From positions 434,001-498,000 of the forward strand of contig NZ_RDSD01000001.1 in assembly GCF_003712195.1 (NCBI RefSeq): 64,000 nucleotides of DNA, written 5' to 3'. The translations under genes and the position numbers were made by a program. Positions 10,095 to 58,023 of this stretch are shown here, piece by piece. Origin of the DNA: Proteiniphilum sp. X52. GTDB taxonomy: Bacteria; Bacteroidota; Bacteroidia; Bacteroidales; Dysgonomonadaceae. The notes beneath the pieces are model-generated. The model worked only from the letters and a program-made list of their open reading frames with translations, had not been told where the DNA came from and did no database searches. Every line of letters starts with the position of its first letter. The first letter of the stretch is position 1.

Positions 10095-10128
10095 AACGGT
10101 TTTATATGGAATCCCGGCATAGCGGGAC
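10095..10128 (+). promoter_or_regulatory. Shared stress-gene upstream element, copy 1 (upstream of glsB-like gene)
   Basis: AACGGTTTTAT, five bases, then ATCCCG, a short loop and CGGGA. The same layout lies upstream of the stress-type genes starting at 51340, 57237 and 57984. It ends about 95 bases before the start codon, so it may be a promoter with a hairpin at the start of the transcript, or an operator. Confidence 0.55.
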
Positions 10129-10222
10129 AAGTTTCGATTTTAAAGGATTCTGGTGTGAGAAAAGCTCTCATGCTGTTTTATTCAATTAATTAAAAAATTA
10201 TTAACATTAAAAACAATTAGTT

Positions 10223-10471
10223 ATGAGTTGGTTATGGTGGATTATTGTAGGTGCTGTTGCCGGTTGGCTGGCGGGTAATTTGATGAGAGGCGGAGGTTTC
10301 GGTTTTCTGGTGAACCTCCTGGTAGGCATCGTGGGTGCCGTCATTGGGGGCTGGGTCTTCGGCCTGTTGGGAATCAGTACCGGAAGTGGCGTGATAGGCA
10401 GCCTTGTTACGGCGCTTGTAGGTGCTATATTGCTGCTCTGGATCGTTTCCCTCTTTAAAAAGAACAGGTGA
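10223..10471 (+). CDS. GlsB/YeaQ/YmgE family small membrane protein
   Basis: 82 residues, almost all hydrophobic and glycine-rich, with three predicted membrane helices. The sequence MSWLWWIIVGAVAGWLAG, later IVGAVIGGWVFGLLG, is the signature of the transglycosylase-associated (GlsB/YeaQ) family. Despite the family name these are general-stress inner-membrane proteins without a proven enzymatic role. A hairpin terminator follows 22 bases downstream, so it is a monocistronic gene. The shared upstream element at 10095-10128 links it to the stress island at 51-58 kb. Confidence 0.88.
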   Translation: MSWLWWIIVGAVAGWLAGNLMRGGGFGFLVNLLVGIVGAVIGGWVFGLLGISTGSGVIGSLVTALVGAILLLWIVSLFKKNR

Positions 10472-10492
10472 GGGAACACCTGGGAAATAATA

Positions 10493-10529
10493 AAAAAATC
10501 GATGTGTAAGTGTATGCACATCGGTTTTT
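10493..10529. terminator. Hairpin terminator after glsB-like gene
   Basis: Stem CGATGTG (10500-10506) pairs with CACATCG (10517-10523), with an A-run before it and a T-run after it. Confidence 0.8.
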
Positions 10530-10552
10530 CTGTTTAAATGATACCCCGATTT

Positions 10553-11143
10553 ATGCAAAAACAGCGTATTGGTATTTTTTGCGGATCATTCAATCCTGTT
10601 CATGCCGGGCATCTCATTCTGGCAAACTATCTCTGCGAATTCACCGATTTGGATGAGGTGTGGTTCGTGGTCACACCGCACAATCCGCTCAAAGAGCCCG
10701 GAAATCTGTTGGATGATGACATGCGCCTGGAGATGGTGCGCCTGGCTCTGGAGGGATTCGATCATATGACTGTCTCTGATGTGGAATTTCATATGCCTCG
10801 CCCTTCCTATACCATAGATACTTTGACAAAACTGACGAAGATGTATCCGGATAAAGACTTCACCCTTATCATCGGCGGCGATAACTGGAAGCAGTTCCAC
10901 AGATGGAAAGAGGCCGGCCGGCTGATGAAAAACTATCGGATCGTTGTTTATCCGAGACTGAGTGAAGAGGTGGTGATACCGGATGAATTTGCTCTGTCTG
11001 TCCGGCTTGTGGAAGCTCCCATAGTTGAACTCTCTTCCACATTTATCCGTGAAAGTATCCGCGACGGAAAAAACATGCGCGCTTTTCTTCCTCCCAAAGT
11101 GTATGATTTTATAATCCAAAACCGACTATACCGAAAGAAATAA
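10553..11143 (+). CDS. nadD: NadD, nicotinate-nucleotide adenylyltransferase
   Basis: Adenylates nicotinate mononucleotide in NAD synthesis. The N-terminal nucleotidyltransferase motif GIFCGSFNPVHAGHL (GxFxPxHxGH) and the C-terminal ELSSTFIRESIRDG (the ISSTxIR motif) are both present. The 196 residues match the family. I place the start at ATG 10553, nine residues before the motif; an ATG at 10538 would add five residues. It converges on the TPR gene with an 11-base gap. Confidence 0.94.
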   Translation: MQKQRIGIFCGSFNPVHAGHLILANYLCEFTDLDEVWFVVTPHNPLKEPGNLLDDDMRLEMVRLALEGFDHMTVSDVEFHMPRPSYTIDTLTKLTKMYPDKDFTLIIGGDNWKQFHRWKEAGRLMKNYRIVVYPRLSEEVVIPDEFALSVRLVEAPIVELSSTFIRESIRDGKNMRAFLPPKVYDFIIQNRLYRKK

Positions 11144-11154
11144 GACAGGTGGCT

Positions 11155-13374
11155 TTATCCTTCCTTGTCGTACCTTATCTTGTCCAGAATGATCGGTAAT
11201 ATGGTAGTGTCTACCCCTGCCTCTTTCAATTCCTTCTTATCTTCGTCGAGCATCGATTCAAATATCTCAAAACTGCCCGCTTTCTCGAGCGAGAGTTTAT
11301 ACATCTCGACCGATCTTTTCGTCTGTTCGAGGCATAGAGCCACATGGCCGGCATTGAGATAATCATGAGCATTGGGTTTAGCTTCCAATATGCGGGAGTA
11401 ATATCTCTCCGCCACATCGAGTTTGCGCGACAGGAAAGCACACCAGGCAATGGAGCGCCACGCGCGGGTATTATTGCTGTTGATCATCTCCACCTTGAAG
11501 TAATAGTTGAGCGCTTTTTCATACTCTTTCAATTCCAAGTGGCAATGTCCGATATTGAGTTGAATATTCAGGTCGTCGGGACGAAACTGTTCCACACGGC
11601 GGTAGTATTCCAGGGCGGTGATGGGTTCTTTCAGCACCCTGTAGCAATAGGCAATGCGGTTTAGCACCCATGTGTTGTTCCCTTCTATCAGATCGGCATG
11701 CAGGTAGGCCTCTAATGCCCCTTTCATATCAGCCAGCATCTGCCGGCAATAGCCTATTTTCTGCCATATCTCACTCTTGCCGCTTCCCGTTTCTGCCAGT
11801 AGGGCATAGGCACTGAGAGCTTCGTTGAAATTATTTTTCTCGAAATAATAGAGAGCTATCTTTTCTAAATGATTGGGCTGCATTACTACCGGTTGAAATG
11901 CCGGCAAACGATGGTAGTTGAGGGGCAGTTCAAAGATATCGGGGAATTCGCCGCGGCGGGGGAAGAGTTTAAAGAAGCGGTAAAGATCCTGGATATACTG
12001 CTTGATCATCGTTTCCTCTTTTCGGAAAGGCTTGAGTGCCTCTTCCTCTGTCTGCATCTTTTTCAGCTCATCGCTTTCGGCCCCTAGTTGGGAAGCCATC
12101 ATCTTCCGGTAATTTTCAGGCATCATCATTATGCTAAGGCAGAATGAGTATTTATCGGAATTGCAGATAAGGGACGATCCTGAAAGCGCTTCCACGAGCG
12201 AATCTTTTTCGGAACGGTTGGCCAAGAATGGTTGAATGCTGCTGTGCCGCGGTGTGAACGGAAGGAACCAATTACTCATTTGCTGAAAGAAGGGGTAAGA
12301 CTTCAGATTTGAAAAAGTAGAATGAAAGACGTCGGCACCTTCCAACTGCAATTCGGTAAATTCCTGTAATTTATCCGTCAGCCCGGTTTCATCCAGTATC
12401 TTTTGCCATTCGGGATTCTTCTCATCGAAGCCGGTTTCACCCATCCATTCGTCTAATTTTATCTTTTTACCGATCATCGGACTCAGTTTCATCATTTCGG
12501 GAAGGATCTCCTCGGTCAGTTTTTTTGTGATCTTTTCCGTCTCATGCGCCTGAATGAAGCCGATAATAGCCGCGATAAAACGATGTCCGAAGGTTTTGTC
12601 ATCCGACAGCAGTTTCAGCCGGTCGCAGCACCCCGAATACAGTTCTAACCGGGAGTTATATATCTGGAATATGGGGATGATGCCTGTTATCGCCCGGAGA
12701 GCCAATTCCGTTTCCGGGTGGTTGCAGAGGTCGAGCAGCAATTCAATTTTCCGGGCGTCGAAGCGTTGCAGGATATTCATCATTAGTGCCGCGATAAACA
12801 GCGCTTTATCCTGCCGCGGGACCGATCGGTCTTCCATGAAATTACGGCACGAGGTGATGAAATCGCCGTTTGCCCTGGGAGAGACAAAGACCGTATAGAA
12901 CAGATCTTGTTGCGTGTTTTCGCGTGTGATGGTGGTCTGCCTTATACGGGACTCTTTCTCGGGCCCATCCTCCAGCAGATCGATGAAAGAGAGGGTGTCT
13001 GCCTGTTTGGTGATAAGAATCCTGTACTCCTCTATCGTCACAGGCGCGCGCGCGTTCATCAATCTTGTTTTATCGAAGAAAAGGGATGAACTTTCCTGCA
13101 GGAGCAGTTGTTCGGCTGCATCTTCCGCCAAAGTATATATATCGCGGGTCAATTTGTTGTAAACACGTTTTTGTTCCGGGTCTTTTTTACCTTCAATCAG
13201 ATAGTGCAGCATGAATTGATAATTGGTCGTCAGCTCGGCTATTTTTTCCGAAACCGCCCAACTCTGCTGTATGGTGGAAAGCTCTTTGATACCCTCAAGG
13301 GCATCTTTCAGTTGCTTGTGTTCGATATATGAGTAGATGGTTGCCAGTTTTTTCCTTATATCGGATGGATTCAT
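11155..13374 (-). CDS. Large TPR-repeat protein
   Basis: About 739 residues, soluble, with no signal peptide. The first two thirds are helical and unrecognised. From about residue 510 to 690 there are several consecutive tetratricopeptide repeats (for example YYFEKNNFNEALSAYALLAETG, ALEAYLHADLIEGNNTWVLN, ALEYYRRVEQFRPDDLNI, ALNYYFKVEMINSNNTRAW). It is probably a protein-interaction scaffold. Proteins of this layout are common hypotheticals in Bacteroidales; no function is known to me. The start is ATG 13374 (MNPSDIRKKL); a GTG at 13398 is less likely. Confidence 0.75.
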   Translation of the reverse strand: MNPSDIRKKLATIYSYIEHKQLKDALEGIKELSTIQQSWAVSEKIAELTTNYQFMLHYLIEGKKDPEQKRVYNKLTRDIYTLAEDAAEQLLLQESSSLFFDKTRLMNARAPVTIEEYRILITKQADTLSFIDLLEDGPEKESRIRQTTITRENTQQDLFYTVFVSPRANGDFITSCRNFMEDRSVPRQDKALFIAALMMNILQRFDARKIELLLDLCNHPETELALRAITGIIPIFQIYNSRLELYSGCCDRLKLLSDDKTFGHRFIAAIIGFIQAHETEKITKKLTEEILPEMMKLSPMIGKKIKLDEWMGETGFDEKNPEWQKILDETGLTDKLQEFTELQLEGADVFHSTFSNLKSYPFFQQMSNWFLPFTPRHSSIQPFLANRSEKDSLVEALSGSSLICNSDKYSFCLSIMMMPENYRKMMASQLGAESDELKKMQTEEEALKPFRKEETMIKQYIQDLYRFFKLFPRRGEFPDIFELPLNYHRLPAFQPVVMQPNHLEKIALYYFEKNNFNEALSAYALLAETGSGKSEIWQKIGYCRQMLADMKGALEAYLHADLIEGNNTWVLNRIAYCYRVLKEPITALEYYRRVEQFRPDDLNIQLNIGHCHLELKEYEKALNYYFKVEMINSNNTRAWRSIAWCAFLSRKLDVAERYYSRILEAKPNAHDYLNAGHVALCLEQTKRSVEMYKLSLEKAGSFEIFESMLDEDKKELKEAGVDTTILPIILDKIRYDKEG

Positions 13375-13410
13375 ACGATTAAAACTATTTATTTTCACTA
13401 AAGTTAGACT

Positions 13411-13525
13411 ATTTGAGTCGCCTTCGCTCCTCTTCTTGTCAATTGAGTCGCCTTGGCTCCTCTTCCTGTCAATTGAGTCGCCTTGGCTCCTCTTCCTGTC
13501 AATTGAGTCGCCTTCGCTCCTCTAT
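13411..13525. repeat. Four tandem 30-base units upstream of the TPR gene
   Basis: The unit is roughly gagtcgccttggctcctctt plus cctgtcaatt. The copies begin near 13414, 13444, 13474 and 13504; the outer two carry one base change (cttcgctcc) and the last degenerates after 13524. Uniform 30-base spacing without spacers excludes a CRISPR array. Confidence 0.88.
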
Positions 13526-13657
13526 TTTCAATTCTCGCTATGACATGGTAGAGGCAAGCTTCTCCCAGCTCATTTAGCTTAACGGAAAAATTCAAAAGTA
13601 TCGTATGGAACTCGCATTTAATCATGAACTTGGGTGAGAACGATTATCATGCTCGTT

Positions 13658-14569
13658 TCATAGTTGGATTGAATTTGTCGCCTCTTTGATGATCAGCGTC
13701 GACGGGAGACAATCTGTCCACGGCAGTGGGGTACAGATCAATTTACTCCATCCTTCCGTGCCGATGATAACAAGATCCTGCTCCTTAATAAAGTCGCACC
13801 CTATCTTTTTGTCATTGTCCCATAAGTAAATCCGTCCTTCGCTCTTCTTTGCGATGAACTGGTAGAGTTTCTGCATTTTCGCATCTGATTCAATGATGCC
13901 GATCGCATCCCAGATCATGATCTTCACATTCTCCTGCTGGGCAATCCGGTAAAGATAAGTGAAGATATGGATATCGGATTTCTGCAGGAGGGGAATGAAT
14001 AACTTCCTGAACTGCGTGATCCCGCAGTCTATGAACAGACCGGCAGCTACCGTATTGCGACTGAACAGGGCGTTGATACTTTTCAGGCTTCCGGCTTCCT
14101 TCTCTTCGAATTGTTCGAGGATGAAGGAGTCGGAGTACTTGGGGTCACTTTTGAGTTGCCCGTACTTTTTCATCAAGCTGGAGTTAAACTCATTGTTATG
14201 GATACCCAATAAAATCAGATTGGATTTCTGCTCTTCAGAGATCCTTATGATATCCGCATAATAATCGTCGGAGGATCGAATGAACAGGCGAAGGGTGATC
14301 CTCTCCCTCTCTTCCGCGGAGATAAGGCCGGAGATGATCTTGTGCTTGTATTCGTCCATCTCTTCACTGAGTCGCATCTCCTCCGATTTGTCGATAAAAT
14401 AGAGAAGGGTGATGGACGATTTTTCCGATTTCGACCGGATCATTCGGGTGGCCAGCCCGGTCAATATTTTACCTGTTTCCAACATGGAGAAACAGATCAA
14501 TGCGCTATTGTTTTTTTTCATTTCCGCCTCGCCGTCGAAGCGATTTAATAACATCTCTGCAAAATCCAT
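13658..14569 (-). CDS. Stand-alone USP-like protein resembling the cytosolic tail of CPA2 cation/proton antiporters
   Basis: 303 residues, no membrane segment. Two alpha/beta halves are visible: ALICFSMLETGKILTGLATR...ITLLYFID, with SNLILLGIHNN closing the first, and a second half ending KEQDLVIIGTEGWSKL...PSTLIIKEA. Order and spacing recall the universal-stress-like C-terminal half of Bacteroidales cation:proton antiporters (FxxxLIxxTN/VxVCR, then LxLPPxAE). Here there is no transporter domain in frame or upstream, where serB begins. It could be a free regulatory subunit or a leftover of a once-longer gene. The start is ATG 14569; ATG 14521 (MKKNNSALI) is an alternative. The homology is recalled, not computed. 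Confidence 0.5.
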   Translation of the reverse strand: MDFAEMLLNRFDGEAEMKKNNSALICFSMLETGKILTGLATRMIRSKSEKSSITLLYFIDKSEEMRLSEEMDEYKHKIISGLISAEERERITLRLFIRSSDDYYADIIRISEEQKSNLILLGIHNNEFNSSLMKKYGQLKSDPKYSDSFILEQFEEKEAGSLKSINALFSRNTVAAGLFIDCGITQFRKLFIPLLQKSDIHIFTYLYRIAQQENVKIMIWDAIGIIESDAKMQKLYQFIAKKSEGRIYLWDNDKKIGCDFIKEQDLVIIGTEGWSKLICTPLPWTDCLPSTLIIKEATNSIQL

Positions 14570-14593
14570 ACCACCCTGTTTTTAGTGAACAAA

Positions 14594-15826: not shown

Positions 15827-15885
15827 TATTACGATAATATTGTACTGTTATGGCAATGAACCTCGTCGCCGGTCTCTTTCCCGTT

Positions 15886-16728: not shown

Positions 16729-16819
16729 TCAGTACCGATTTTTTTATAAAAGCAAAGATAAGGATATTTTCTTTTACTCTCTATGGAAGTGCCGGGAAAT
16801 AAAAATAGTGGGGTCGCTG

Positions 16820-16850: not shown

Positions 16851-16882
16851 TGTAATAAATAACAGAAAATGTCTACTCAACA

Positions 16883-33018: not shown

Positions 33019-33081
33019 GTTTGTATTTTGTCCAGCATAAAAGACACCAAAAAGACCTCAAAAGACACAAATCTGTGCCTA

Positions 33082-33124
33082 AATCGTTACCGATTCCATA
33101 CCGGACAAAAACGGTAACGATTTG
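33082..33124. repeat. 12-base inverted repeat at left end of element A
   Basis: AAATCGTTACCG (33082-33093) and CGGTAACGATTT (33113-33124). This is the layout of arm-type integrase binding sites. The same pair occurs in element B at 38138-38149 and 38169-38180 (one mismatch), and a related site lies near the right end of B at 43717-43729. Confidence 0.7.
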
Positions 33125-33221
33125 TCCAAAAATGACCTCTTGCTGTCCAAATTTGTACAGCCTGTATATATCTCACAATTAATACATTAAAAGTAATTTT
33201 GTAACAATGAAAAGTGAGATT

Positions 33222-34171
33222 ATGAAAAGTACATTCAAAGTCCTTTTCTACCTGAAAAAAAGGTCGGAAAAGCGTAATGGAGAGGTGTCGATTATGACAA
33301 GAATTACCGTTGATGGAAAAATTTGCCAGTTCAGTACGAAACAAAGCATCCTTCCCGAGAACTGGAATGTGAAAGCTGGAAAAGCCACAGGAAAGTCTGC
33401 CGGACAAATCAACAAGCTACTGGACGACATCGAAGCTTCCCTCAACCAAATCTACCAGGAGCAACAGCGGCGAGACAACTACGTTACTGCCGAAAAGGTA
33501 AAGAATGAGTTCCTGGGCCATTCAGAGAATCATGCGACATTACTGGATTTGTTTGGGAAGCACAACAACGATGTGAAACAACTCATCGGTATATCCAAAT
33601 CCGCATCTACCCACCAAAAGTATGAAGTAACCCGGAAGCACCTTGAGAATTTTATAAGATACAAGTGCAATCTGTCGGATATTGCACTGCAAGAGATAAA
33701 CCTAATGTTTATCACCGATTTTGAAGTGTATCTTAAAACGATCTGCAAATGCAATTCCAACACCACAGCCAAATTTATGCAGTTTTTTAAGCGCATCGTT
33801 CTGATTGCCCGAAATAACGGAATTATTATTGGAGATCCTTTTGCGAATTACAAAATCCGGCTGCAAAAAGTGGGTAGAGGCTATCTTACGGAAGATGAAA
33901 TCAAAAAAAATACTAGAACTCAACCTTGTATCCGAAAGGTTGGAACATGTTCGTGATTTATTTATTTTTTCTTGTTTTTGTGGTTTGGCTTACATAGATG
34001 TGGCAGGTCTTAGAAAGGAGCATATCCGCAAATCGTTTGACGGCAACCTTTGGATTATGACCAAACGGGTGAAGACAGGCACAGATGTCAATGTTCCGTT
34101 ATTGGATATTCCCAAAATGATCCTGGACAAGTATAAAAACAAGCTCCCAAATGGGGAAATCCTTCCAATAA
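33222..34171 (+). pseudogene. Tyrosine recombinase (integrase) of element A, frameshifted and truncated
   Basis: The N-terminal arm and SAM-like core-binding domains read MKSTFKVLFYLKKRSEKRNG...NWNVKAGKATGKSAG through LTEDEIKK in one frame to about 33910. There a single extra base after the run of eight A's shifts the frame. The catalytic half continues in another frame: ILELNLVSERLEHVRDLFIFSCFCGLAYIDVAGLRK (box I region) to about 34165. It then stops at the IS fragment, so the HxxR and the catalytic Tyr are lost. Comparison with the copy in element B, which has the normal frame at this point, proves the frameshift. ATG 33222 is the start conserved in both copies. Confidence 0.85.
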
Positions 34172-38077: not shown

Positions 38078-38137
38078 TTCTACTATGCCCATCATAAAGG
38101 ACACGAAAAAGCACCAAAAAGACACAGTTTTGTGCCT

Positions 38138-38180
38138 AAATCGTTACCGATTCCGTTCCGGACAAAATAGGTGACGATTT
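38138..38180. repeat. Inverted arm-type repeat at left end of element B
   Basis: AAATCGTTACCG (38138-38149) and AGGTGACGATTT (38169-38180). It corresponds to 33082-33124 in element A. Confidence 0.65.
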
Positions 38181-38278
38181 GTCCGAATTTGACCTCTCGC
38201 TGTCCAAATTTGTACAGTCTGTATATATCTCACAATTAATAGATTAAAGGTAATTTTGTAACATTAAAAAGTGAGGTT

Positions 38279-38926
38279 ATGAAGAGTACATTCAAAGTCC
38301 TTTTTTACTTGAAAAAAGGCGCAGAAAAGCGAAATGGAGAGATAATTATTATGGCAAGAGTTACCGTTGACGGGAAAGTCTGCCACTTCAGTACGAAACA
38401 AAGCATTCATCCCGACAACTGGAACGTAAAAGCCGGAAAAGCCACCGGTAAGTCATCCGTACAAATCAATAAGCTACTGGATGATATCAAGGCATCCCTG
38501 AATCAAATCTACCACGAACAGCAACGGCGTGATAACAATGGGCTTATTTAGGGCGACCCTTTTGCAAATTATAAAATCCGCTTACAAAGGGTTGACTGTG
38601 GCTATCTTACAGAAGATGAAATCAAAAAAAACCTTGAACTCGACTTGGTTTCCGAAAGACTGGAACACGTCTGGGATTTATTTATCTTTTCCTGCTTTTG
38701 CGGTTTGGCATACATCGATGTAGCCGGACTTAAAAAGGAACATATCCGTAAATCATTTGACGGAAATCTATGGATTATGACGAAACGGGTGAAGACCGGA
38801 ACGAATGTCAATGTTCCGTTGCTGGACATTCCGAAGATGATTTTGGATAAATATAAAGACCGGTTACCTCATGGTAAAATTCCGTCAATTCCGAAGGCAA
38901 AACCAATGAAGCGACCAAAAAGGTGG
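38279..38926 (+). pseudogene. Tyrosine recombinase (integrase) of element B, internally deleted
   Basis: The N-terminal part (MKSTFKVLFYLKKGAEKRNG...NWNVKAGKATGKSSV) is read to about 38545. Compared with copy A, roughly 345 bases are then missing. The middle/catalytic part continues from about 38549 with GDPFANYKIRLQRVDCGYLTEDEIKKNLELDLVSERLEHVWDLF...KILDKYKDRLPHGKIPSI. It breaks off before the catalytic HxxR and Tyr, joined to an unrelated K/E-rich tail. It is related to copy A throughout. Confidence 0.82.
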
Positions 38927-45377: not shown

Positions 45378-45911
45378 TCAGATTTTTTCCTTATTTTTTC
45401 TGGATCCGTTAGTCTCCTTTTTCTCATATTGAATAAAGGAGATCCTGCCGTCGCTTTCCACAAATGCTTTTTTCACATCGCTGATATTCTCCATTCCGTT
45501 TTCCCGCAGTGAATTCATTAATTCATCCTTTGTCAGCAATTCTTTGCGCATGTTTCTCAGGTTCAAATTCCCGTCTTTGATGATCAAGAGAGGCGGATGC
45601 TCGAAAATTTTTTGAAAGAAGGTGAAGCGATATGTCAATTGATTGACCCCGTGGTTGCAAAGCAGGAAAACGAGCAACATGACAATGCCGTCGCCGAGGG
45701 TGGTGAAATCTCCCAGAGCATGCGATGCGGCTTCTGTAAGCAGCAAGACGAAAACCAAGTCCATCGCCGTGAGCTCGCCGGTGGTACGGCGGGTGAGGAT
45801 GCGAAGCATGAAGAGGATGAAAAAATAGAGCGCCATGCCACGAACAATGAGTTCCAGCACAGGGTATTCAGGGATAAAGACATCCTGCCAGTTGTCGGGT
45901 GAAAATTTCAT
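45378..45911 (-). CDS. DUF421 membrane protein (YetF type)
   Basis: 177 residues. Three membrane helices at the N-terminus (VLELIVRGMALYFFILFMLRI, TAMDLVFVLLLTEAA, DGIVMLLVFLLCN) are followed by the soluble DUF421 domain (PPLLIIKDGNLNLRNMRKELLTKDELMNSLRENG). The family is widespread and often linked to stress genes; its activity is unknown. ATG 45911 (MKFSPDNWQ) overlaps the stop of the FAD-Rieske gene (ATGA); a longer upstream frame is only the overlap. It is the last gene of the operon. Confidence 0.87.
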   Translation of the reverse strand: MKFSPDNWQDVFIPEYPVLELIVRGMALYFFILFMLRILTRRTTGELTAMDLVFVLLLTEAASHALGDFTTLGDGIVMLLVFLLCNHGVNQLTYRFTFFQKIFEHPPLLIIKDGNLNLRNMRKELLTKDELMNSLRENGMENISDVKKAFVESDGRISFIQYEKKETNGSRKNKEKI

Positions 45912-47428
45912 TCCGGGTTGAGGGGTTTCTTCAGTTTCTTTACGGCCGGGCCGGTGAGCACTTCGCCATTGATTCCGAACCGGGAACCGTGGCAAGGACA
46001 ATCCCACGATTTTTCTTCGCTGTTCCATTTGACAGTGCAGTGCAGGTGGGTGCAGTCGCTTTGCAATATATGTTCCTTGCCCGTGTCGTCCTTATATACG
46101 GCCAATGAGTATCCTTCGTAGTTGACCACTTTACCTTGTCCGTTTTCAAGGGCGGCCAGTGTCCTGATTTTGTCCACCGAAAACCGGTCAAACAGAAGAT
46201 GTTTTACTACATCTGCGCCCTCTTTCACGAAATTGGTAAACGATGCGAGCGGCTTTGTGCGGGCGGGGTCGAAGAGCTTTTTGTATATACTGTCGCCTGT
46301 GGCAACGAGGTCGGACAATGTTTTGGCGGCCAGCGTCCCGAAAATCATTCCATTACCGGTGTAGCCCGTGGCACAGTACACATTGTCGGGACTACCGGGA
46401 AGATGCCCGATGTAGGGCAGTCCGTCCGCCGACTCGTAAAATTGCGATGACCATCTGTATGCTACGCGTTCGATGTCGAAATACCGGCCTACGTAATTTA
46501 CCAATCTTTCAAAGCATTCGTTCGTATTTTCAATGTCGCCTGTTTTATGGTCTTCCCCTCCGGCAATCAGGTACTCCTCGCCATTGATGACGTGCGTGCG
46601 GTAGTAATGGTACGCTTCATACAAGTCGTAACCGAGCGCCTGCGGATAATTGTTATCCCTCAGTTTCAAGGCGACAACATAGCTGCGGTAGGGAGCGTTC
46701 CTGAAGTGCATGATGTTTTTGCCGGGCGGCAAATGAGTGGCATATATAACGTGGTCACACACGATATTGCCTTGTTGGGTGGATACCACAAGGTGATCCC
46801 CTTCTTTTTCCACCCCGGCGACTCGGCAACCTTCCACGAACCTCCCGCCATCCTTCACATATTCACCCATCAAGCTTTTTATATACTTTATGGGATGGAA
46901 TTGCGCCTGACCCGGTATTTCCACCACTTTTGTGGAGGGTATCCCAAAAGGATTTATCCCGGTTTCATTCATTTCGATGCCTGCCTTCCGGCTTCCTTCC
47001 ACCAGGTCGTCGAGGATTTTTTCCTGCTCCTCGTCCAATGAAAACAGGTAGGCCGTGCGGGGCGAATAGTCGCAATCGATATTGAATTCAACCACATTGC
47101 CGTGTATGATTTCCAGCGCTTCGCCGGCAGCCAGAGCCAGCAGTTTGGCCGCATCCAATCCAAAATCATCGATGACCTCGTCATAAGAAGCATCAAAAAA
47201 AGTATTCAGATGGGCGGTTGTGCCACTTGTAGTGCCGTGCCCCATGTTGGCGGCTTCTATTATCATACAGTCAAATCCTTTTTTCTGAAGATTCAACGCG
47301 GTGGTGACGCCTGTGATCCCGGCACCGACGATCACCACGTCAAGGTGGGTTCTATTCACGTCATTTTCGTGTCCATATACCTTGATTTCGGATTGCCAGA
47401 GGCTTTCCAATGCTCCGTCTCGTTTCAT
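45908..47428 (-). CDS. FAD-dependent oxidoreductase with C-terminal Rieske domain
   Basis: 506 residues. The DAO-like domain has LDVVIVGAGITGVTTALNLQKKG (FAD-binding GxGxxG) at about 29-50 and GYTGNGMIFGTLAAKTL near 370. A Rieske domain follows with CTHLHCTV and CPCHGSRF (two His, two Cys, 2Fe-2S ligands) and then GINGEVLTGPAVKKLKKP. The substrate is unknown; related proteins are called glycine/D-amino acid oxidase-like. It lies in the operon after the glycosidase gene (40-base gap) and is coupled to DUF421. Confidence 0.9.
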   Translation of the reverse strand: MKRDGALESLWQSEIKVYGHENDVNRTHLDVVIVGAGITGVTTALNLQKKGFDCMIIEAANMGHGTTSGTTAHLNTFFDASYDEVIDDFGLDAAKLLALAAGEALEIIHGNVVEFNIDCDYSPRTAYLFSLDEEQEKILDDLVEGSRKAGIEMNETGINPFGIPSTKVVEIPGQAQFHPIKYIKSLMGEYVKDGGRFVEGCRVAGVEKEGDHLVVSTQQGNIVCDHVIYATHLPPGKNIMHFRNAPYRSYVVALKLRDNNYPQALGYDLYEAYHYYRTHVINGEEYLIAGGEDHKTGDIENTNECFERLVNYVGRYFDIERVAYRWSSQFYESADGLPYIGHLPGSPDNVYCATGYTGNGMIFGTLAAKTLSDLVATGDSIYKKLFDPARTKPLASFTNFVKEGADVVKHLLFDRFSVDKIRTLAALENGQGKVVNYEGYSLAVYKDDTGKEHILQSDCTHLHCTVKWNSEEKSWDCPCHGSRFGINGEVLTGPAVKKLKKPLNPE

Positions 47429-51166: not shown

Positions 51167-51340
51167 TTATCTTCCGCGAGAGTCGGATTTATCCGAATCC
51201 TTATTGCCCTTTGATCCTGAACGATCGTCGGAATCCTTTTTCGTGCTTTTGGAGTCGGATGATTTGTCGGCGCCTTTGCCTTGCTGTGAAGTAGAGCCTT
51301 GTTTACGGCCGTTGTCTTCGTTTGTTTTCTTTGAGTCCAT
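51167..51340 (-). CDS. Small Ser/Lys/Asp-rich hydrophilic protein (57 residues)
   Basis: MDSKKTNEDNGRKQGSTSQQ, then GKGADKSSDSKSTKKDSDDR and SGSKGNKDSDKSDSRGR. It has no hydrophobic core and should be disordered. It resembles in style the small stress or desiccation-protective proteins of Bacteroidota, without a family I can name. The upstream element at 51363-51395 and a terminator make it a clear monocistronic gene. Confidence 0.72.
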   Translation of the reverse strand: MDSKKTNEDNGRKQGSTSQQGKGADKSSDSKSTKKDSDDRSGSKGNKDSDKSDSRGR

Positions 51341-52070
51341 AATTGTTTTTTTTTATTTTAAAACCCGATTCGTTTCGGGATACATGTATAAAACCGTTTA
51401 TCTTCCCTTTTTGTTTTTGTCCTTACGCCCTGTTTAACCATTGTTATACATATATAACATTAAGATTTAAATGGGGTATGGAATCTCCCGCAGCATGCGG
51501 TCGGGCATCATGGAATGAAACCCCTGGAGATTAAAAAATACAAAATAACCCTAAAAAGAGGCCCCGAAAATTTGCCGGTGTCCTTTTTTATCCATACATT
51601 TGTTCCTAATATTCAAGAAGTCCTCTCTTCTCTGAGTCCATAATTGAGAAAATAGTTAGGTCTTCATGGCCCGGGTAACGGTTTTAGGCCGGATCCGGGC
51701 TTCTATTTTCCCATTAGGTATAATTAACGATTGTGTGTCCCAGCCCTTCCCTTTTTTAAATCGGTGTGCTTTTTCATTATCAGCAAATCCTCATAATTAA
51801 GCCGCATGATCTTTGATTTTCCCCTGCTAGTCATTTCGCTTAGTATTGGGATAACGCATGTGGAGGCTGAAAGTTATCATTGAAACTCATTCTGTTGAAC
51901 TCCTTAGTCAAATCATGAACCATTAAAAAACGGGGTTTGTTTCCGATGAATCGGTACCCGCATTTTAACAAATGCGCCCCCCGAGAACCGGAACATGAGA
52001 GCACCCCAGGAACATTTTTTTTTGAGGAATGTTTATCATTATGTACACGCTTAAAAGAAAGGAGTTTATT
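51341..52070. other. 730-base region without a gene
   Basis: It holds the upstream element of the 57-residue protein gene. Near 51615-51647 the minus strand has a second short frame that begins MDSEKR, next to a repeated TGAGTCCATAATTG; it may be a decayed copy of the same gene's start. A small inverted repeat (CGCATTT/AAATGCG, 51959-51976) lies before the DUF6496 gene. Otherwise I see nothing. Confidence 0.5.
51363..51395 (-). promoter_or_regulatory. Shared stress-gene upstream element, copy 2
   Basis: On the minus strand: GGTTTTAT, six bases, ATCCCGA, loop AACGAA-type, TCGGGT. It has 26 of 33 bases in common with copy 4 (57991-58023), and two stem differences are compensatory. Confidence 0.65.
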
Positions 52071-52343
52071 ATGGCAAAATATTCGAAAAAAGCACAGGAC
52101 AAGATTGGGGAAGTCATGCGCGAGTTTAAAGAGGGCAAATTAAAGACCTCGGCTGGGAAAAAAGTAACCGACAGGGATCAGGCCATCGCCATCGGAATCT
52201 CGGAGGCGAAAGATTCGGGTTACAAAGTGCCCGAAGAAAAGGAAGGAGACTCTTCGAAAAAATCCAAGAAAGAGAACAAGAAAGAGAACAAGAAAGAATC
52301 CAAGAAAGAGAACAAGAAAGAATCCAAGAAAGAGAACAAGTAA
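52071..52343 (+). CDS. DUF6496 small Lys-rich protein
   Basis: 90 residues. The domain MAKYSKKAQDKIGEVMREFK...LKTSAGKKVTDRDQAIAIGI is the DUF6496 signature. The tail is a Lys/Glu/Asn-rich repeat (KKENKKENKKESKKENKKES). A good ribosome-binding site, AAAGGAG, precedes the ATG (52071), so a longer upstream frame is not used. Its function is unknown; relatives occur in stress-response neighbourhoods. Confidence 0.85.
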   Translation: MAKYSKKAQDKIGEVMREFKEGKLKTSAGKKVTDRDQAIAIGISEAKDSGYKVPEEKEGDSSKKSKKENKKENKKESKKENKKESKKENK

Positions 52344-52408
52344 TCGGGGGGAACCGGTTTGGTTTCGGTTTAGCAACCGGTCATCAGGGTTTGCTGTGCA
52401 GTAACAAC

Positions 52409-52487
52409 GGGATATCGGGCTGTTTTGGGGGCACACGTCCCGCTCGGGCTTGCGGGCGGTTTTGTTCTCCCCGGGAATGAAATTATT
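52409..52487. repeat. Approximately 80-base direct repeat, copy 1
   Basis: It aligns without gaps to 56509-56587 (offset 4100), with roughly four bases in five identical. The two copies flank five genes on the minus strand. Confidence 0.8.
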
Positions 52488-52617
52488 TGAATCCGCATTC
52501 TCGGCAATTCCAACTCCGTGTCAATGACAAAAAATCGACAAGTTGTATGTTGTCCTCAAAAATGGGGTGGTCGTTTTCGGCTCACCGGTAAAAGTATGTT
52601 TTTCTTTTTAAAGGTAA

Positions 52618-53457: not shown

Positions 53458-53598
53458 TTCCAAGTCCTCCTTGTAAAGAAATTTTGTCGTTGTACTGTTA
53501 TTGTAGGTCATAAATAAGACAACAGACTGTCATATTTTATACGGCTTTTGAGTCTGTTCCAAAAATAACCTGTAATAGTCAAGACTTGTTCTGACAGC

Positions 53599-54189
53599 TT
53601 ATTGTCCGATAGTACTTTTTGAGGCATTTACGCTATTTTCGTGTTTTTTGCTCCTCCACTTTTCCAAGGTGAGTTTTGTGAAGTGTTCTATGCGAAATTC
53701 ATTCATCAATGGAACTAATTTGTTGTACTCTGTATGGCTGTAAGTGAATCCACATTTTTCCTGTGCCCTTTTAGACTTTTTGTTACCGTCAAAGTAACCA
53801 CACCAAACGGCAGTCTTACGTAAATCCTCGAAGATATACCTAAGCAATTCGTTCACCGCTTCGGGAATTAGGCCTTTTCCCCAGAATGGTTCGCCAATCC
53901 AGAACCCGATCTCACACTCACTATCTGTCATCCTTGCACTGTGAATTTCACTTCTTACAGTCATTATTCCAATGCTACCAATGGCTTCACCTGTCTCTTT
54001 CAATACAACAGCGTAAGTCTCTGGGGTACTAAGGACAGTCGTGATGATCTTACGACTGTTTTCAATGCTAGTATGTGGTGGCCAACCAGCCATTGGACCA
54101 ATATTAGGATTTTGCGCATACTTGTAAAGTGATTCGGCATCACTTTCCTGCCACGGTCTTAAAATCAGTCGGTTTGTTTGTAACTTCAT
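53599..54189 (-). CDS. GNAT acetyltransferase (RimJ/RimL type)
   Basis: 196 residues. The fold begins MKLQTNRLILRPWQESDAESLYKYAQNP; the acetyl-CoA region reads IGFWIGEPFWGKGLIPEAVNELLRYIF and is followed by GYFDGNKKSKRAQEKCGF. This is the usual order for ribosomal-protein-type N-acetyltransferases that act on amino groups of proteins or drugs. I take ATG 54189 because the first motif starts there. Confidence 0.88.
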   Translation of the reverse strand: MKLQTNRLILRPWQESDAESLYKYAQNPNIGPMAGWPPHTSIENSRKIITTVLSTPETYAVVLKETGEAIGSIGIMTVRSEIHSARMTDSECEIGFWIGEPFWGKGLIPEAVNELLRYIFEDLRKTAVWCGYFDGNKKSKRAQEKCGFTYSHTEYNKLVPLMNEFRIEHFTKLTLEKWRSKKHENSVNASKSTIGQ

Positions 54190-54203
54190 ATTTCTTGGTT
54201 CTT

Positions 54204-54818
54204 TTACTTTAATAACTTTGCCGCAAGTTTGTAGGTAAAGAGAATTCGGGGATTGGACAAGTCCCATCGCTGAACCTCATCCCGTATCAATTCCGCATGC
54301 TTCTTGCTTATATCCCTCAAAGCATTACCCACGGATTTCCTTAGATACTTGCTCTCGTGCGCCTTGTGCTTGCCGATTAACGCAATGGCAATTGACGGAT
54401 TCTCGTTGAAGAACGGACGGCTTGTCCAAATCCTCAATCCTTCAGTTACGGCACGGATAACATTCGGATTGTCGTCATTCAGCCACTCTTCGATGAGCGG
54501 TAAAGACGCTTCATATCCTCCGCATTTACAAACTTCATCAAAAGCCATTGCAAGCATTTCCTGCACACGCCAATTCTTGTCTATACTGACTGTCTCTTTC
54601 AGAAAACAAAGTGCATTATTATTCTCTGTTGCCAATCTACCCAATAGCGTTGTCGCCAACATCCGGAATTGATAGGCTTCATGCCTGAACAGTTCGAGGG
54701 CAAGTTCAAAACATTGCTCCTTCGGGTATGCGGAAAGGATTTCATCAGCCCCATCAAGGATGTGGTGAAAACCATGCTCTATTTGCCGTATCTTGTTTAA
54801 TAAGTTATCGATATCCAT
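54204..54818 (-). CDS. HEAT-repeat DNA alkylation repair-like protein
   Basis: 204 residues of helical HEAT-like repeats: LALELFRHEAYQFRMLATTLLGRLA, NWRVQEMLAMAFDEVCKCGGYEASLPLIEEWLNDDNPNVIRAVTEGLRIW and YLRKSVGNALRDISKKHAELIRDEV. It is close to the AlkC/AlkD-like DNA alkylation repair group, but the aspartate-centred active site cannot be confirmed. It ends 15 bases before the GNAT gene. Confidence 0.75.
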   Translation of the reverse strand: MDIDNLLNKIRQIEHGFHHILDGADEILSAYPKEQCFELALELFRHEAYQFRMLATTLLGRLATENNNALCFLKETVSIDKNWRVQEMLAMAFDEVCKCGGYEASLPLIEEWLNDDNPNVIRAVTEGLRIWTSRPFFNENPSIAIALIGKHKAHESKYLRKSVGNALRDISKKHAELIRDEVQRWDLSNPRILFTYKLAAKLLK

Positions 54819-54837
54819 TTGTTGAGTGTAAAATTCT

Positions 54838-55476
54838 TCATTCTTCCATTTTTCTTGTCGGATGCCGGATCACAGTCCTCCGTTTTTCGGGAGCGACTTT
54901 CCGGGCATCACTGAGGTAGATTTCATGATGCATGCGCTTATCCGTAATGTCGAGGACGTAGCCCCGGCTCTCCATGTATTCGTGCATAAGTGCGACAGTA
55001 ACCGGCTCGTCGTCATAAGAACCGACATGCATGCATTGGACGCATAATCCTTCATTATAAGTGAGAAATTCAACCTTGGAAAAATCGGTTTTCTTTTTCT
55101 TCGTTGCTTCCCGGATTGCCCACTCGAAATCCGCTTTTGTCACAAAGTCCGGAAGACGGATGACCGATATCCACTTGAAGTTTTCCTTTCGGGCATAGTC
55201 GATACCTTTTATGCCATCCTGCCACCAGAAGCCTTCGAGTGGCGGCACGACATAATCGAAATACCCTTCGATGCGATGATCGCCTTTTTTGCTCATTTTG
55301 ATGGTAAACGCGATTCCATACAAAAGCCCGATCGACTGTTTGTATTCTCCCTCCTCTGCATTCGGGTCTCCCTGTCCGCGAACGGCTATGTAATTCATGC
55401 TTGGCACGGTAATGATACCGGGCTTGGTGGGGGGCATATAGAATTCCCTGTATTCTTTTTTATAGTCAAAAGCCAT
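54838..55476 (-). CDS. GyrI-like small-molecule-binding protein
   Basis: 212 residues, starting MAFDYKKEYREFYMPPTKPGIITVPSMNYIAVRGQGDPN, the typical GyrI-like N-terminus. Also visible: YVVPPLEGFWW and VQCMHVGSYDDEP...LHEYMESRGY. Such stand-alone domains bind small hydrophobic molecules or drugs. Twenty bases separate it from the HEAT-repeat gene. Confidence 0.88.
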   Translation of the reverse strand: MAFDYKKEYREFYMPPTKPGIITVPSMNYIAVRGQGDPNAEEGEYKQSIGLLYGIAFTIKMSKKGDHRIEGYFDYVVPPLEGFWWQDGIKGIDYARKENFKWISVIRLPDFVTKADFEWAIREATKKKKTDFSKVEFLTYNEGLCVQCMHVGSYDDEPVTVALMHEYMESRGYVLDITDKRMHHEIYLSDARKVAPEKRRTVIRHPTRKMEE

Positions 55477-55497
55477 TGGTTTATTCCTCCATCTTAT

Positions 55498-56037
55498 CTA
55501 TTTGTCGCTTGTTTTGATATGCATCCTTATCTTCCTCTTCGCCCAGTCGTAATGGCTTGCCGTTGTCGAGACACAGTAGGCGCCGAGCGTGGAAGTGCCT
55601 GTCCAACCGAACGCCCCCTTGGCAAAGAGTTCGTCGTTGGAGAATTGCCCTATCAGCGTCATTACCTCCTTGTGACTCTCTTTTAATTTCGCCTTTGCTT
55701 CTGTCAATGGCGTGCTTTGATGCTTCTTCCAAAACTCCGCGTTCATTGCCGGGTAGGTTTTCCAGTTGTACGGTTCTGGCAGGAAGGTCTTGTGCTCGCC
55801 GTCAAGATTGGCTTTTATCCACCTCAGTAGCAGTTGATGCCACTCGTACAGATGTACCAGCACATCACGCAGGTTCCTGTCCCTGCTCCAATGCGTTTCT
55901 TTCCCGGCCGTTGCCATTTCGTCGGCAAAGGCTGCCTTCTGCCGTTCTTCGCTCATACTGTCGATGAGTTTCCACATCTTGTCGAATTGTCCGTTGGCGG
56001 ATGCTGTCAAATCCGCTTTTGTCGTTGCCCGTGCCAT
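55498..56037 (-). CDS. ClbS/DfsB family four-helix protein
   Basis: 179 residues, MARATTKADLTASANGQFDKMWKLIDSM, then RNLRDVLVHLYEWHQLLLRWI and GAFGWTGTSTLGAYCVSTTASHYDWAKRKIRMHI. ClbS-type proteins give self-protection from genotoxins in E. coli; most homologues are uncharacterised DinB-fold proteins. It is the first gene of the block. Confidence 0.85.
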   Translation of the reverse strand: MARATTKADLTASANGQFDKMWKLIDSMSEERQKAAFADEMATAGKETHWSRDRNLRDVLVHLYEWHQLLLRWIKANLDGEHKTFLPEPYNWKTYPAMNAEFWKKHQSTPLTEAKAKLKESHKEVMTLIGQFSNDELFAKGAFGWTGTSTLGAYCVSTTASHYDWAKRKIRMHIKTSDK

Positions 56038-56508
56038 AGTCTTTATTACTTATGTCTTTTCTTTGTTTTTCTTGATAAGGCAAATATACTGATTTGTTGC
56101 AAAAAACGCCGAAGTTTTCGGGCAAAAGCTTTCTTGCCTTCTCGAAAAAGTTCCGGTGCTTTTGAGGGCTTCTTTTTGAGTTTTTTGCCCCATCGTTTTT
56201 GATTAATCGAACGCCTCCAGACTTGAAGAAACTCACACGGCAGCAACAACGGGAGTTTGCGGGCAGTCGCCCGCCTTGGTGTGTTGGGTATGGTACCCCG
56301 TGCCATTATTGAGGTGTCAAATCGCCGAATGTGCCGACATAAGCATTTTTGTCCACATAATGCACAAAGGCGAAATGCTGTTGCACCTCGTTAATACTTT
56401 GGCATTTCTTCAGGAATGGTTGACGGCATTCTTCCCGAAATTGATTTCCCTTGCTATAAATTTTGGGGAATTCCCGGATTCCGTTACCGGGCCTGGTGCG
56501 CTCACATC

Positions 56509-56587
56509 GGGATTTCCGGCTGTTTTGCGGGGACACGTCCCGCACCGGCTTGCGTGCGGTTTTGTTCTCCTGGGGAATGAAGTTATT
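56509..56587. repeat. Approximately 80-base direct repeat, copy 2
   Basis: Aligns gap-free to 52409-52487. It contains TGTTTTGCGGGGACACGTCC, compared with TGTTTTGGGGGCACACGTCC in copy 1. Part of the word (AACAACGGGA) also occurs at about 56246. Confidence 0.8.
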
Positions 56588-56595
56588 CAAGAAAA

Positions 56596-56647
56596 AAAAG
56601 ATGTTCTTTTCAACATACGGATGGGCCGTATCGAAAGAACATCTTTT
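56596..56647 (-). terminator. Terminator of the DUF892 gene
   Basis: AAAAGATGTTCTTT (56596-56609) pairs with AAAGAACATCTTTT (56634-56647), with an inner ATACGG/CCGTAT stem. On the minus strand a run of T's follows. Confidence 0.85.
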
Positions 56648-56667
56648 CCGGATCGAACCGAATCACT

Positions 56668-57237
56668 TTATTCTGCTTTTGCCTTTGGGTTTACCGACAT
56701 CATTGCCACATCGGTTAAAGAGAGGTCGGTTGATTTCTCTTCGTGCAGGGTTTCTTCCAGTATCTTTGCCACCTCGTAGAGTTCGAGGGTCTTTGCCAGT
56801 TCCGCCAGACTGCCGTATGTGGCAATTTCGTAATGCTCCACTTTTTGCGAGGCGAGGATAATGGCAACGTCACGCACCATGGTGCCTTCTTCGGTGTCTT
56901 CCAGGACGCTTTCGCCTTCCTTGAGAATTCCGTCAATGGCGTCGCATTTCTTCTTGGCGGGTTTTTGTCCCATCAAGCTGAAAATTTCCTCCAGCCTTTT
57001 AATTTGTCCTTGAGTTTGAGCGTAATGCGCATTGATACCGCTTTTCAGCTCTTTTGAGGTTGCCGCGGCCTCCATTTTCTTGAGGCCTTTAAGGATTTCG
57101 TTTTCGGCGTAGTAAATGTCTTTGAATTCTTCTATCAGGAATTCTGTGAGTTTGCCCGCGTCTTCTTGACTGAATTTTGACTGGTTTTTACTTTTTGTGG
57201 TTGAAGTCTCTTTTTTGTTTTCATTTTTTGTTGCCAT
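56668..57237 (-). CDS. DUF892 ferritin-like protein (YciE/YciF type)
   Basis: 189 residues. A basic, Lys/Thr/Ser-rich leader (about 25 residues) precedes the domain. The four-helix part starts LTEFLIEEFKDIYYAENEILKGLKKM, with helices KSGINAHYAQTQGQIKRLEEIFSLM and VEHYEIATYGSLAELAKTLEL, where the E...ExxH-type metal residues lie. In E. coli YciF is induced by general stress. Terminator and upstream element point to a one-gene unit. Confidence 0.88.
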   Translation of the reverse strand: MATKNENKKETSTTKSKNQSKFSQEDAGKLTEFLIEEFKDIYYAENEILKGLKKMEAAATSKELKSGINAHYAQTQGQIKRLEEIFSLMGQKPAKKKCDAIDGILKEGESVLEDTEEGTMVRDVAIILASQKVEHYEIATYGSLAELAKTLELYEVAKILEETLHEEKSTDLSLTDVAMMSVNPKAKAE

Positions 57238-57255
57238 AATGTTTGTGGTTTAGGG

Positions 57256-57286
57256 GTATCCGTTGGTTCGGATACTTGATTAAATG
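57256..57286 (-). promoter_or_regulatory. Shared stress-gene upstream element, copy 3
   Basis: On the minus strand CATTTAATCAAGTATCCG, AACCAA, CGGATAC. The stem CGGATAC/GTATCCG around AACCAA corresponds to TCGGGAT-type stems around AACGAA in copies 2 and 4. It ends 18 bases before the ATG of the DUF892 gene. Confidence 0.5.
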
Positions 57287-57306
57287 TATGTCTGTAGGCG
57301 CCGGGG

Positions 57307-57984
57307 TTAAATCACCGGGAATTCTTCGGCTTCTATTACCCGTTTGAAGTTTTTGATGTCGTCGCGGATAATTTTCTCCAAAGCGGGGGTAAACAGTTTG
57401 GCTATTCCGGCTCCTAAATTGCCTGCGGGAGCTTCATAGGAAATGTTCACCTGGATTATCGTCTCCGCGTGGCCCATATCCGCAAATCTGACCAATCCGG
57501 TGTTTACCACTTGTGAGTCGGGCATACTTTTCCATTTGATGGACTCATTGGGGACATCGGAGGTGATTTCGCATTTCCATTCTACCTTGCCCAGGCCGCC
57601 GGGGATCCTGGCATTCCATACCGAATGAAGGTCACTGAGTTCGCGTACCGATTCCAGGTGTTTCATAAAAAGCGGCAGGTTTTCGAGCTTGCGCCAGTAA
57701 GCATACACTTCTTCCCGCGGCTTGCTCACGGTTACGGCAGTTTCTACAAGAACGCGCTTCGGGTGTGAGGTGGTATCCATGCCCAGCGTATGGTAGAGCG
57801 GACAATGACCTCTGACCGCCCTGAGCATCAGGGAGCCGCCTGCGAAAGCTTTCAATAGTTTGTTTCTTCCGCGAAACGCTTTTGAAAACAGCCACAGGCC
57901 TGCCCCGAAGGATAGAATCCGTTCGGTGACGCCTACGTTTTGCTGCTGATCGAGTTCAAAATTTTTAATATTCATCTTTTTCAT
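57307..57984 (-). CDS. SRPBCC (polyketide-cyclase-like) protein with hydrophobic N-terminus
   Basis: 225 residues. The first 65 (VGVTERILSFGAGLWLFSKAFRG, AGGSLMLRAVRGHCPLYHTLG) are the DUF2892/YgaP-like helical hairpin. From about 75 an SRPBCC domain follows (VLVETAVTVSKPREEVYAYWRKLENLPLFMKHLESV...). Such fusions are common among Bacteroidota stress genes and bind unknown hydrophobic ligands. Start 57984 (MKKMNIKNF); ATG 57975 is also possible. It is 69 bases from the DUF892 gene, with its own element. Confidence 0.85.
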   Translation of the reverse strand: MKKMNIKNFELDQQQNVGVTERILSFGAGLWLFSKAFRGRNKLLKAFAGGSLMLRAVRGHCPLYHTLGMDTTSHPKRVLVETAVTVSKPREEVYAYWRKLENLPLFMKHLESVRELSDLHSVWNARIPGGLGKVEWKCEITSDVPNESIKWKSMPDSQVVNTGLVRFADMGHAETIIQVNISYEAPAGNLGAGIAKLFTPALEKIIRDDIKNFKRVIEAEEFPVI

Positions 57985-57990
57985 TTAAGT

Positions 57991-58023
57991 ACCTGGTTCG
58001 TTCCAAGATACATAAATAAAACC
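57991..58023 (-). promoter_or_regulatory. Shared stress-gene upstream element, copy 4
   Basis: On the minus strand GGTTTTATTTATGTATCTTG, then GAACGAACCAGGT. Compared with copy 2 it agrees at 26 of 33 positions. It ends only 7 bases before the ATG. Confidence 0.65.

Follow-up and report, generated by a model that had tools for sequence, protein, structure and literature searches.

Introduction

To our knowledge, bacteria of the phylum Bacteroidota lack RpoS and SigB. Classical sigma-70 has also been reported to be lacking in them (PMC7366714), and in Bacteroides thetaiotaomicron the promoter motif PM2, described as near-palindromic boxes at −10 and −30, marks oxidative-stress genes that are raised in stationary phase (Ryan et al., 2020; PMC7366714). 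Promoters linked to the extracytoplasmic function (ECF) sigma factors SigH-1 and SigW-1 are said to match PM2, two SigW-1 promoters having TGTT close to −10, and SigR-1 and SigH-1, both stress-linked, are assigned to the group ECF114 (PMC12596196). An elusive transcriptional factor is invoked for PM2 at gibS (PMC11697453). Which sigma factor serves the PM2 stress promoters of Bacteroides is not settled. The EcfG motif in Sphingomonas reads GGAAC-N17-20-GTT (PMC6599016). Literature searches on Bacteroidota stress sigma factors, on the motif itself and on stabilizing stem-loops in Bacteroides led to PM2 and ECF114. In the entries and excerpts available, including those of the papers above and of papers on SigP (PMC4800418) and Flavobacterium (PMC9723704) and PMC10994844, there was no description of the element that is our subject. 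It lies in a stretch of 64,000 nucleotides (nt) of Proteiniphilum sp. X52 (contig NZ_RDSD01000001.1, positions 434,001 to 498,000; hereafter the window), where a sequence-only reading had proposed four copies of one upstream element before a glsB-like gene (copy 1), a gene for a 57-residue hydrophilic protein (copy 2), a DUF892 ferritin-like gene (copy 3) and an SRPBCC gene (copy 4).

We consider it probable that this element is an ECF-sigma-type promoter served by one stress-type ECF sigma factor, whose transcript starts within a few bases with a stem-loop that protects the message or is held by a factor. Set beside the PM2 and ECF literature, the promoter is best understood as an ECF promoter of PM2-like type that occurs in another genus; what is new is the structure-kept hairpin at the predicted message start. 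The apparent likeness to PM2, drawn from its description and not letter by letter, would lie in two boxes near −10 and −30, near-palindromy, TGTT near −10 and the link to ECF factors (SigH-1, SigW-1). It may extend to the genes, which are oxidative-stress and stationary-phase genes for PM2 and catalase, short-chain dehydrogenase, DUF892 and glsB genes, likened by family only, for our element. The gene sets differ, however, and the available account of PM2 describes no attached 5′ hairpin. With the EcfG promoters of Alphaproteobacteria the element shares AAC...GTT and, counted alike (GAAC-N17-18-GTT), a fitting spacing, but it has [GA]AACA[AT] where EcfG has GGAAC, the GG being absent, and it belongs to another phylum. 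The ompA message carries a stabilizing stem-loop at its 5′ terminus; the hairpin described here would likewise stand at the very 5′ end, but it is repeated across a gene set and tied to one promoter type. If our reading is true, a promoter class and a compensatorily kept 5′ hairpin couple transcription start to message fate in one cassette, and the question left by PM2 gains a gene set, a promoter of fixed spacing and a candidate sigma factor.

Two boxes and a hairpin recur upstream of stress-type genes in the genus

We compared the genome holding the window (G000, 4.43 Mb) with 38 others of the genus, 39 genomes in all. Copies 2 and 4 agree at 26 of 33 positions and have two stem pairs changed on both sides, as the sequence-only reading had claimed, and their similarity extends about 65 nt farther upstream. 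Searched in the whole of G000 with up to three mismatches, the pattern GGTTTTATNNNTGTATCNNNNAACNAA matched copies 2 and 4 only, both perfectly, and its reversed control matched once. The shorter GGTTTTAT-N3-6-TATC gave 11 matches, and the nine besides copies 2 and 4 all lie inside long reading frames. A DNA search of the 39 genomes with the region upstream of the 57-residue gene found good matches, besides G000, in G007 (1.3e-5) and G021 (4.6e-5), both upstream of homologues of that gene with a DUF892 gene next. The scan of the genome and its relatives proposed in the sequence-only reading showed the element of copies 2 and 4 to recur far above chance in the genus, as seen with the models described next.

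A model trained on these four copies (R1) listed 35 matches including the four training rows; the best nine of the others were inspected and 22 were not. Three were clear new copies (G000:C35, E = 2.9e-7; G011, 2.2e-5; G007:C239, 3.1e-5), all preceding genes whose products start with MDSKKTN, as in homologues of the 57-residue protein. The same element precedes such homologues in G007, G021 and G011 and a paralogue at G000:C35, and G000 holds three full copies. Alignment of the DNA upstream of the R1 copies brought to light a second invariant box, at −35. A second model (R2, ten copies) took in the three clear copies and three weak ones (G034, G036 and G026:C41; E 0.08–0.47), the latter because upstream box and hairpin were present. 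We left out G026:C69 (near-identical to G034), G001:C207 (judged to be chance) and G007:C5, which precedes another small hydrophilic protein gene and a DUF892 gene and has no stable hairpin. R2 found further copies in G024, G029, G018, G031 and G012 (E 6.5e-7 to 0.011), all before genes for one family of acidic small proteins. Twelve of its new matches were inspected, comprising these five copies, two genes with boxes only and five matches judged to be chance; the remaining weak rows of R2 and of a third model (R3, 15 copies) were not inspected, apart from the dehydrogenase sites described below. R3 gave 16 sites at E ≤ 1e-6 in 12 of the 39 genomes, and since 15 of the 16 were in its training set, the figure should be read as a tally, not as a test. 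E-values of all three models are rough, and the compared sequences are related.

In ten aligned copies [GA]AACAA is followed after 15–16 nt by GTTnTA (GTTACA in one copy), then by TGTA and a stem whose loop has six bases. The wider consensus joins [GA]AACA[AT], a spacer of 15–16 nt and GTTnTA; about 4 nt farther on comes a stem of 5–9 base pairs with a loop of usually six bases. This redraws the parts of the earlier proposal: GGTTTTAT is not a box standing alone, as the GTTTTA within it makes up the −10 box of a pair whose −35 box (GAACAA or AAACAA), 15–16 nt upstream, had been missed, and GTATC, taken for a separate box, belongs to the 5′ arm of the hairpin. The combination of boxes, spacing and hairpin turns up again ahead of stress-type genes that are not homologous, and the strong copies precede genes for small hydrophilic or acidic proteins, DUF892 and SRPBCC proteins and a DinB-type polymerase (G026). 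That the copies are products of gene duplication with no common regulation is, in our judgment, very unlikely. Several do lie upstream of genes for similar small proteins with a DUF892 gene next in line, but the SRPBCC, DinB, dehydrogenase and catalase genes belong to other families, the acidic proteins are not alike, and boxes and pairing persist while spacers and flanks have diverged.

Among named genomes, the closest relatives of the DUF892 protein are mostly from Proteiniphilum (Dysgonomonadaceae, Bacteroidales). Of 80 loci of such relatives, the element was found at L187 and L208 (one metagenome-assembled genome, MAG), and L187 is probably the G007 copy itself, having the same place and score as G007:C239. 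A site at L185 is uncertain (E 0.55). There, in Bacteroidetes GWC2_46_850 and outside the named Proteiniphilum records, GAACAA-N16-GTTAAT and a strong hairpin stand before the DUF892 frame (L185:2799-2862), and the cassette may be older than the genus. Upstream of the DUF892 genes at L193, L197, L199 and L226 (Segetibacter, Flavisolibacter and a Chitinophagales MAG) we noticed by eye TGGTAC or TGGCAC and an AT-rich TTTA stretch resembling a sigma-54 promoter; DUF892 may be under another sigma factor in these genomes. Repeated AACAATTAAGGTGAA-like units lie upstream of DUF892 at L186 (a Bacteroidales MAG) and L188 (a Fermentimonas MAG).

Pairing of the hairpin arms is kept while their sequences vary

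Across 15 aligned copies, 90.3% of the cells of a nine-pair stem are paired, versus 24–40% when the partner is slid. Five pairs are changed on both sides, the covariation score is 0.325 (at most 0.122 slid), and none of 500 shuffles reached the observed pairing or covariation score, numbers that are not probabilities because the rows are related. Judged from these alignments, the stem pairing is maintained through compensatory changes. Folded one by one, the hairpins of copies 2 and 4 are unremarkable, with 23 and 31 of 200 shuffles folding equally well, so their support comes from the comparison across copies. With the third G007 copy added, 12 of 16 copies (11 in one pass) beat 95% of their shuffles just after the −10 box; the control positions gave 0 and 0 upstream and, after the box, 1 at 50 nt and 6 at 80 nt. 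In the window, Rfam at its gathering score returned transfer RNA only, and the element matched no known RNA family.

We regard it as improbable that the dyad acts as DNA, an operator bound by a repressor or activator, instead of as an RNA structure. In favour of an operator, the dyads of copy 3 and of the G024 copy are nearly perfect. The arms, however, vary widely, as in CACTTGA-ACTACA-TCAAGTG (G018), GTATCTGA-ACTGCA-TCAGATAC (G024), GTACCCGA and GTATCTTGG, and pairing is nonetheless largely kept, G-U pairs included. The loop is mostly of six bases, and hairpins in the glsB leaders differ in sequence by clade at a similar place. We give almost no credence to a translated leader peptide, suggested by an open frame in copy 4 (MVLFMYLGTNQVLK) that overlaps the SRPBCC start in ATGA with a purine-rich stretch upstream: G007 and G021, whose stem region lacks one base by comparison, do not preserve the frame, and we rejected this reading on that ground.

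The proposed promoter boxes at glsB and at genes with no standard hairpin

Homologues of glsB are present in 33 of the 39 genomes, and loci were obtained for 30. In 29 of these, all except that of G032, the leader contains AAAC[AT]A-N16-GTT[TA][AT] (spacer 16 in 28, 15 in one), 80–102 nt before the gene in 27 leaders and about 200 nt before it in G000 and G021. Spacers of 10–14 or 17–22 and a mirror pattern each matched in 0 of 30 leaders, and 50 rounds of shuffling gave a mean of 0.08 matching leaders in 30, with a maximum of one. As the boxes were picked by pattern, the invariance of AAAC and GTT holds by construction, and the evidence is the 29 of 30 together with the controls. In addition, the 28 leaders with spacer 16 share invariant bases that the pattern did not request (a TT that directly precedes the −35 box, a T two bases downstream of that box and an A as fifth base of the −10 box), and most inner spacer positions show 29–79% identity. 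Hairpins follow the −10 box in many of these leaders: in folding windows beginning 0–15 nt from the start of the −10 box, 18–22 of 29 leaders reached p ≤ 0.2, versus 2–5 of 29 at five control positions. The gene thus shares the promoter class, as the sequence-only reading had it, but through boxes upstream of the copy 1 that it had listed.

Elsewhere the boxes occur with no standard hairpin. In G000, G021 and G007, GAACAA-N16-GTTTTA lies 43–45 nt upstream of a short-chain dehydrogenase gene. It also precedes a catalase gene in G008, which has SRPBCC, DUF892 and dehydrogenase genes as neighbours, and a DUF2383 gene in G033; a DUF2383 gene in G021 has a looser match upstream. Model scores are weak for these genes (E 0.02–0.04 for the catalase, 0.26–0.81 for the dehydrogenases, 0.9–2.9 for the G033 DUF2383). 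From −10 box to start codon we counted 43–46 nt at six hairpin copies and the three dehydrogenase genes, and 90–115 nt at the DinB, catalase and DUF2383 genes. Given that distance at the six other hairpin copies, the SRPBCC start at ATG 57974 (42 nt) appears to fit better than ATG 57984 (32 nt). The DUF892 gene that follows is probably co-transcribed with SRPBCC. A further site, AAACAA-N15-GTTTAC at L147:2005-2031 (G000:C77), stands about 33 nt upstream of a gene whose protein begins like what we take to be a DsbA-type oxidoreductase.

The promoter forms, [GA]AACA[AT], 15–16 nt, GTTnTA and, at glsB, TTAAAC[AT]A, 16 nt, GTTTA, could also be half-sites of a dimeric transcription factor with transcription starting elsewhere. 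In several glsB leaders TTAAAC and GTTTAA form a perfect inverted repeat, the halves separated by about two helical turns, PM2 is described as near-palindromic (PMC7366714), and an elusive transcriptional factor is spoken of (PMC11697453). Outside glsB, however, the boxes (GAACAA and GTTnTA) are not palindromic, and the distance of 43–46 nt to the start codon is promoter-like. Moreover, the TAnnTTTG motif of the main sigma factor occurs in one of 15 leaders of the element and two of 30 glsB leaders, far upstream in both. We think half-sites unlikely and retain the ECF-type promoter as the preferred explanation.

A candidate sigma factor

G000 has 34 Sigma70_r2 matches, 33 of them above the cut-off. 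Autoregulation of the sigma gene is usual, though not universal, in ECF regulons; among the Sigma70_r2 loci of G000 we found no convincing case of an autoregulated ECF gene. The best candidate for the element, by inference from structure matches, is P0001, a protein of 172 residues encoded at G000:C55, where its gene is flanked by those for a sodium/calcium exchanger and an Hsp90-type protein. Its nearest solved structures are 5uxx (9.2e-19), listed as an RNA polymerase sigma factor and presumably EcfG of Bartonella quintana, and SigH 5zx2 (1.4e-18), which we take to be from M. tuberculosis. For four other ECF proteins of G000, the first match was SigW (two), 6in7, named a sigma-H factor (one), and a SigH/SigE chimaera (one), with 5uxx at 1.3e-4 to 6.7e-11. 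As the comparison covered five of the 34 sigma matches, P0001 is a candidate and no more. Its best alignments, with 5uxx and SigH, recall sigma factors of the SigH/SigR (ECF114-like) type, but no anti-sigma gene was seen adjacent at its locus, and the likeness is one of structure matches. The EcfG response is run by PhyR-NepR, which was not searched for in G000; here only the EcfG/SigH-like P0001 was seen.

A proposed mechanism and the evidence against it

In the mechanism we propose, one ECF sigma factor of stress type would direct RNA polymerase to begin transcription a few bases past the −10 box. With such a start, the messenger RNA would have a short leader that is almost wholly hairpin. 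The hairpin would most likely shield the 5′ end from decay, or an RNA-binding factor might hold it, and transcripts produced as stress or stationary phase sets in could thereby last. An alternative-sigma promoter with a 5′ hairpin, as the sequence-only reading had suggested, fits the evidence well and takes in glsB by promoter class, with changes in detail concerning the boxes and copies 1 and 3. More speculatively, and here we have clear doubts, the general stress response of Proteiniphilum might rest on one EcfG/SigH-like sigma factor and a promoter-borne RNA tag, the structure-kept 5′ hairpin marking or preserving the messages of the regulon when growth stops.

Several observations weigh against the proposed mechanism. 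The start site and the expression pattern are both deduced from sequence. A search across 393 genomes of the order, with 13 candidates scored per genome, matched in G000 only. The boxes alone are weakly specific: GAACAA-N15-17-GTTNTA matches G000 12 times, versus nine for the reversed pattern. Strict boxes were found at none of the loci of the 34 Sigma70_r2 matches, and looser ones gave eight matches in 35 loci, one of them (L122) some 40 nt upstream of an ECF gene; the hairpin was seen with none of the eight. In folding just after the −10 box, copies 2 and 4 reached no better than p 0.08 and 0.06, stretches 80 nt after that box also beat their shuffles in six of 16 copies, and the glsB leader of G000 itself had no hairpin just after the box. 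The third G007 copy and the dehydrogenase, catalase and DUF2383 genes had either no hairpin or another one, the DUF2383 gene folded being that of G033. In the SigW-1 study, the SigW-1 motif itself was not significant (PMC12596196).

Copies 1 and 3 and other features of the window

Coordinates of the features are collected in Table 1.

Table 1. Boxes, hairpins and genes located in the window, with the basis of each assignment.
Feature	Position	Strand	Basis or remark
−35 box AAACAA, copy 2	51411..51416	−	Aligned with nine other copies, AACAA invariant
−10 box GTTTTA, copy 2	51389..51394	−	16 nt from −35 box; GTT and last A invariant in 15 aligned copies
Hairpin CCCGA-AACGAA-TCGGG, copy 2	51364..51379	−	Fold; pair counts across 15 copies
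57-residue hydrophilic protein gene	51167..51340	−	No Pfam match
−35 box GAACAA, copy 4	58038..58043	−	Alignment of copies
−10 box GTTTTA, copy 4	58017..58022	−	15 nt from −35 box
Hairpin CTTGG-AACGAA-CCAGG, copy 4	57992..58007	−	Fold; pair counts across 15 copies
SRPBCC gene (YgaP-like transmembrane + Polyketide_cyc)	57307..57984	−	Pfam families
DUF892 ferritin-like gene	56668..57237	−	69 nt after SRPBCC
−35 box AAACAA, glsB	10023..10028	+	AAAC[AT]A-N15/16-GTT in 29/30 glsB loci
−10 box GTTTAA, glsB	10045..10050	+	16 nt from −35 box; same 29/30 loci
glsB-like gene (Transgly_assoc)	10223..10471	+	Pfam family
Hairpin TCCCG-GCATAG-CGGGA, copy 1	10112..10127	+	In stretch seen only in G000 and G021
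Hairpin GTATCCG-AACCAA-CGGATAC, copy 3	57256..57275	−	Between SRPBCC and DUF892; fold z −4.85, 0/200 shuffles equal
Candidate promoter GAACAT-N15-GTTTAT before DUF6496 gene (52071-52343)	52010..52036	+	Sequence; no fold or hairpin
Candidate promoter GAACAA-N16-GTTATT before 297-residue gene (no Pfam match)	53565..53591	−	No hairpin

The single plan once ascribed to all four copies holds for copies 2 and 4; copies 1 and 3 were listed by none of R1, R2 and R3, even with the filters switched off and E allowed to reach 10. Both do carry the inverted repeats described for them, with stems of 5–7 pairs and six-base loops, but not as copies of the same element. Copy 1 has GGTTTTAT and, by eye, no good −35 box, and nine of 200 shuffles fold as well as its hairpin. 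Its stretch occurs in two of 29 glsB leaders (G000 and G021), and we rejected it as a regulon copy for that reason. In these two leaders (about 10070–10180; the region is missing in G014) the hairpin has an identical five-pair stem and differing loop letters. Copy 3 has no −35 or −10 box recognizable by eye. At L181 (a Proteiniphilum MAG), a hairpin of other sequence that resembles copy 3, TTTAGAC-TACGTG-GTCTAAA with a six-base loop, lies directly upstream of DUF892.

A weaker look-alike reported before the DUF6496 gene was not supported, and the candidate promoter in Table 1 is closer. A first search of the genus with a loose pattern gave 30 loci, of which ten were inspected and none judged a copy; several precede what is presumably an isopropylmalate/homocitrate-synthase-like gene. 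Relatives of the SRPBCC gene were found in two of 61 genomes and, at E ≤ 1e-20, in four of 393 (G000 counted in both). We tried them as a footprint of the element and rejected them, the G008 gene sitting behind catalase without the copy 4 element upstream.

Close to the stress genes, positions 45378–47428 hold a DUF421 (YetF-type) gene and a Rieske-FAD oxidoreductase gene. Two stretches about 5 kb apart, 33074–34085 and 38131–38805, are diverged copies of one another with up to 32 of 33 bases identical. Finally, 52433–52465 and 56533–56565, both near gene ends, are identical at 30 of 33 bases (ACACGTCCCGC..CTTGCG.GCGGTTTTGT) and perhaps represent a short repeat.

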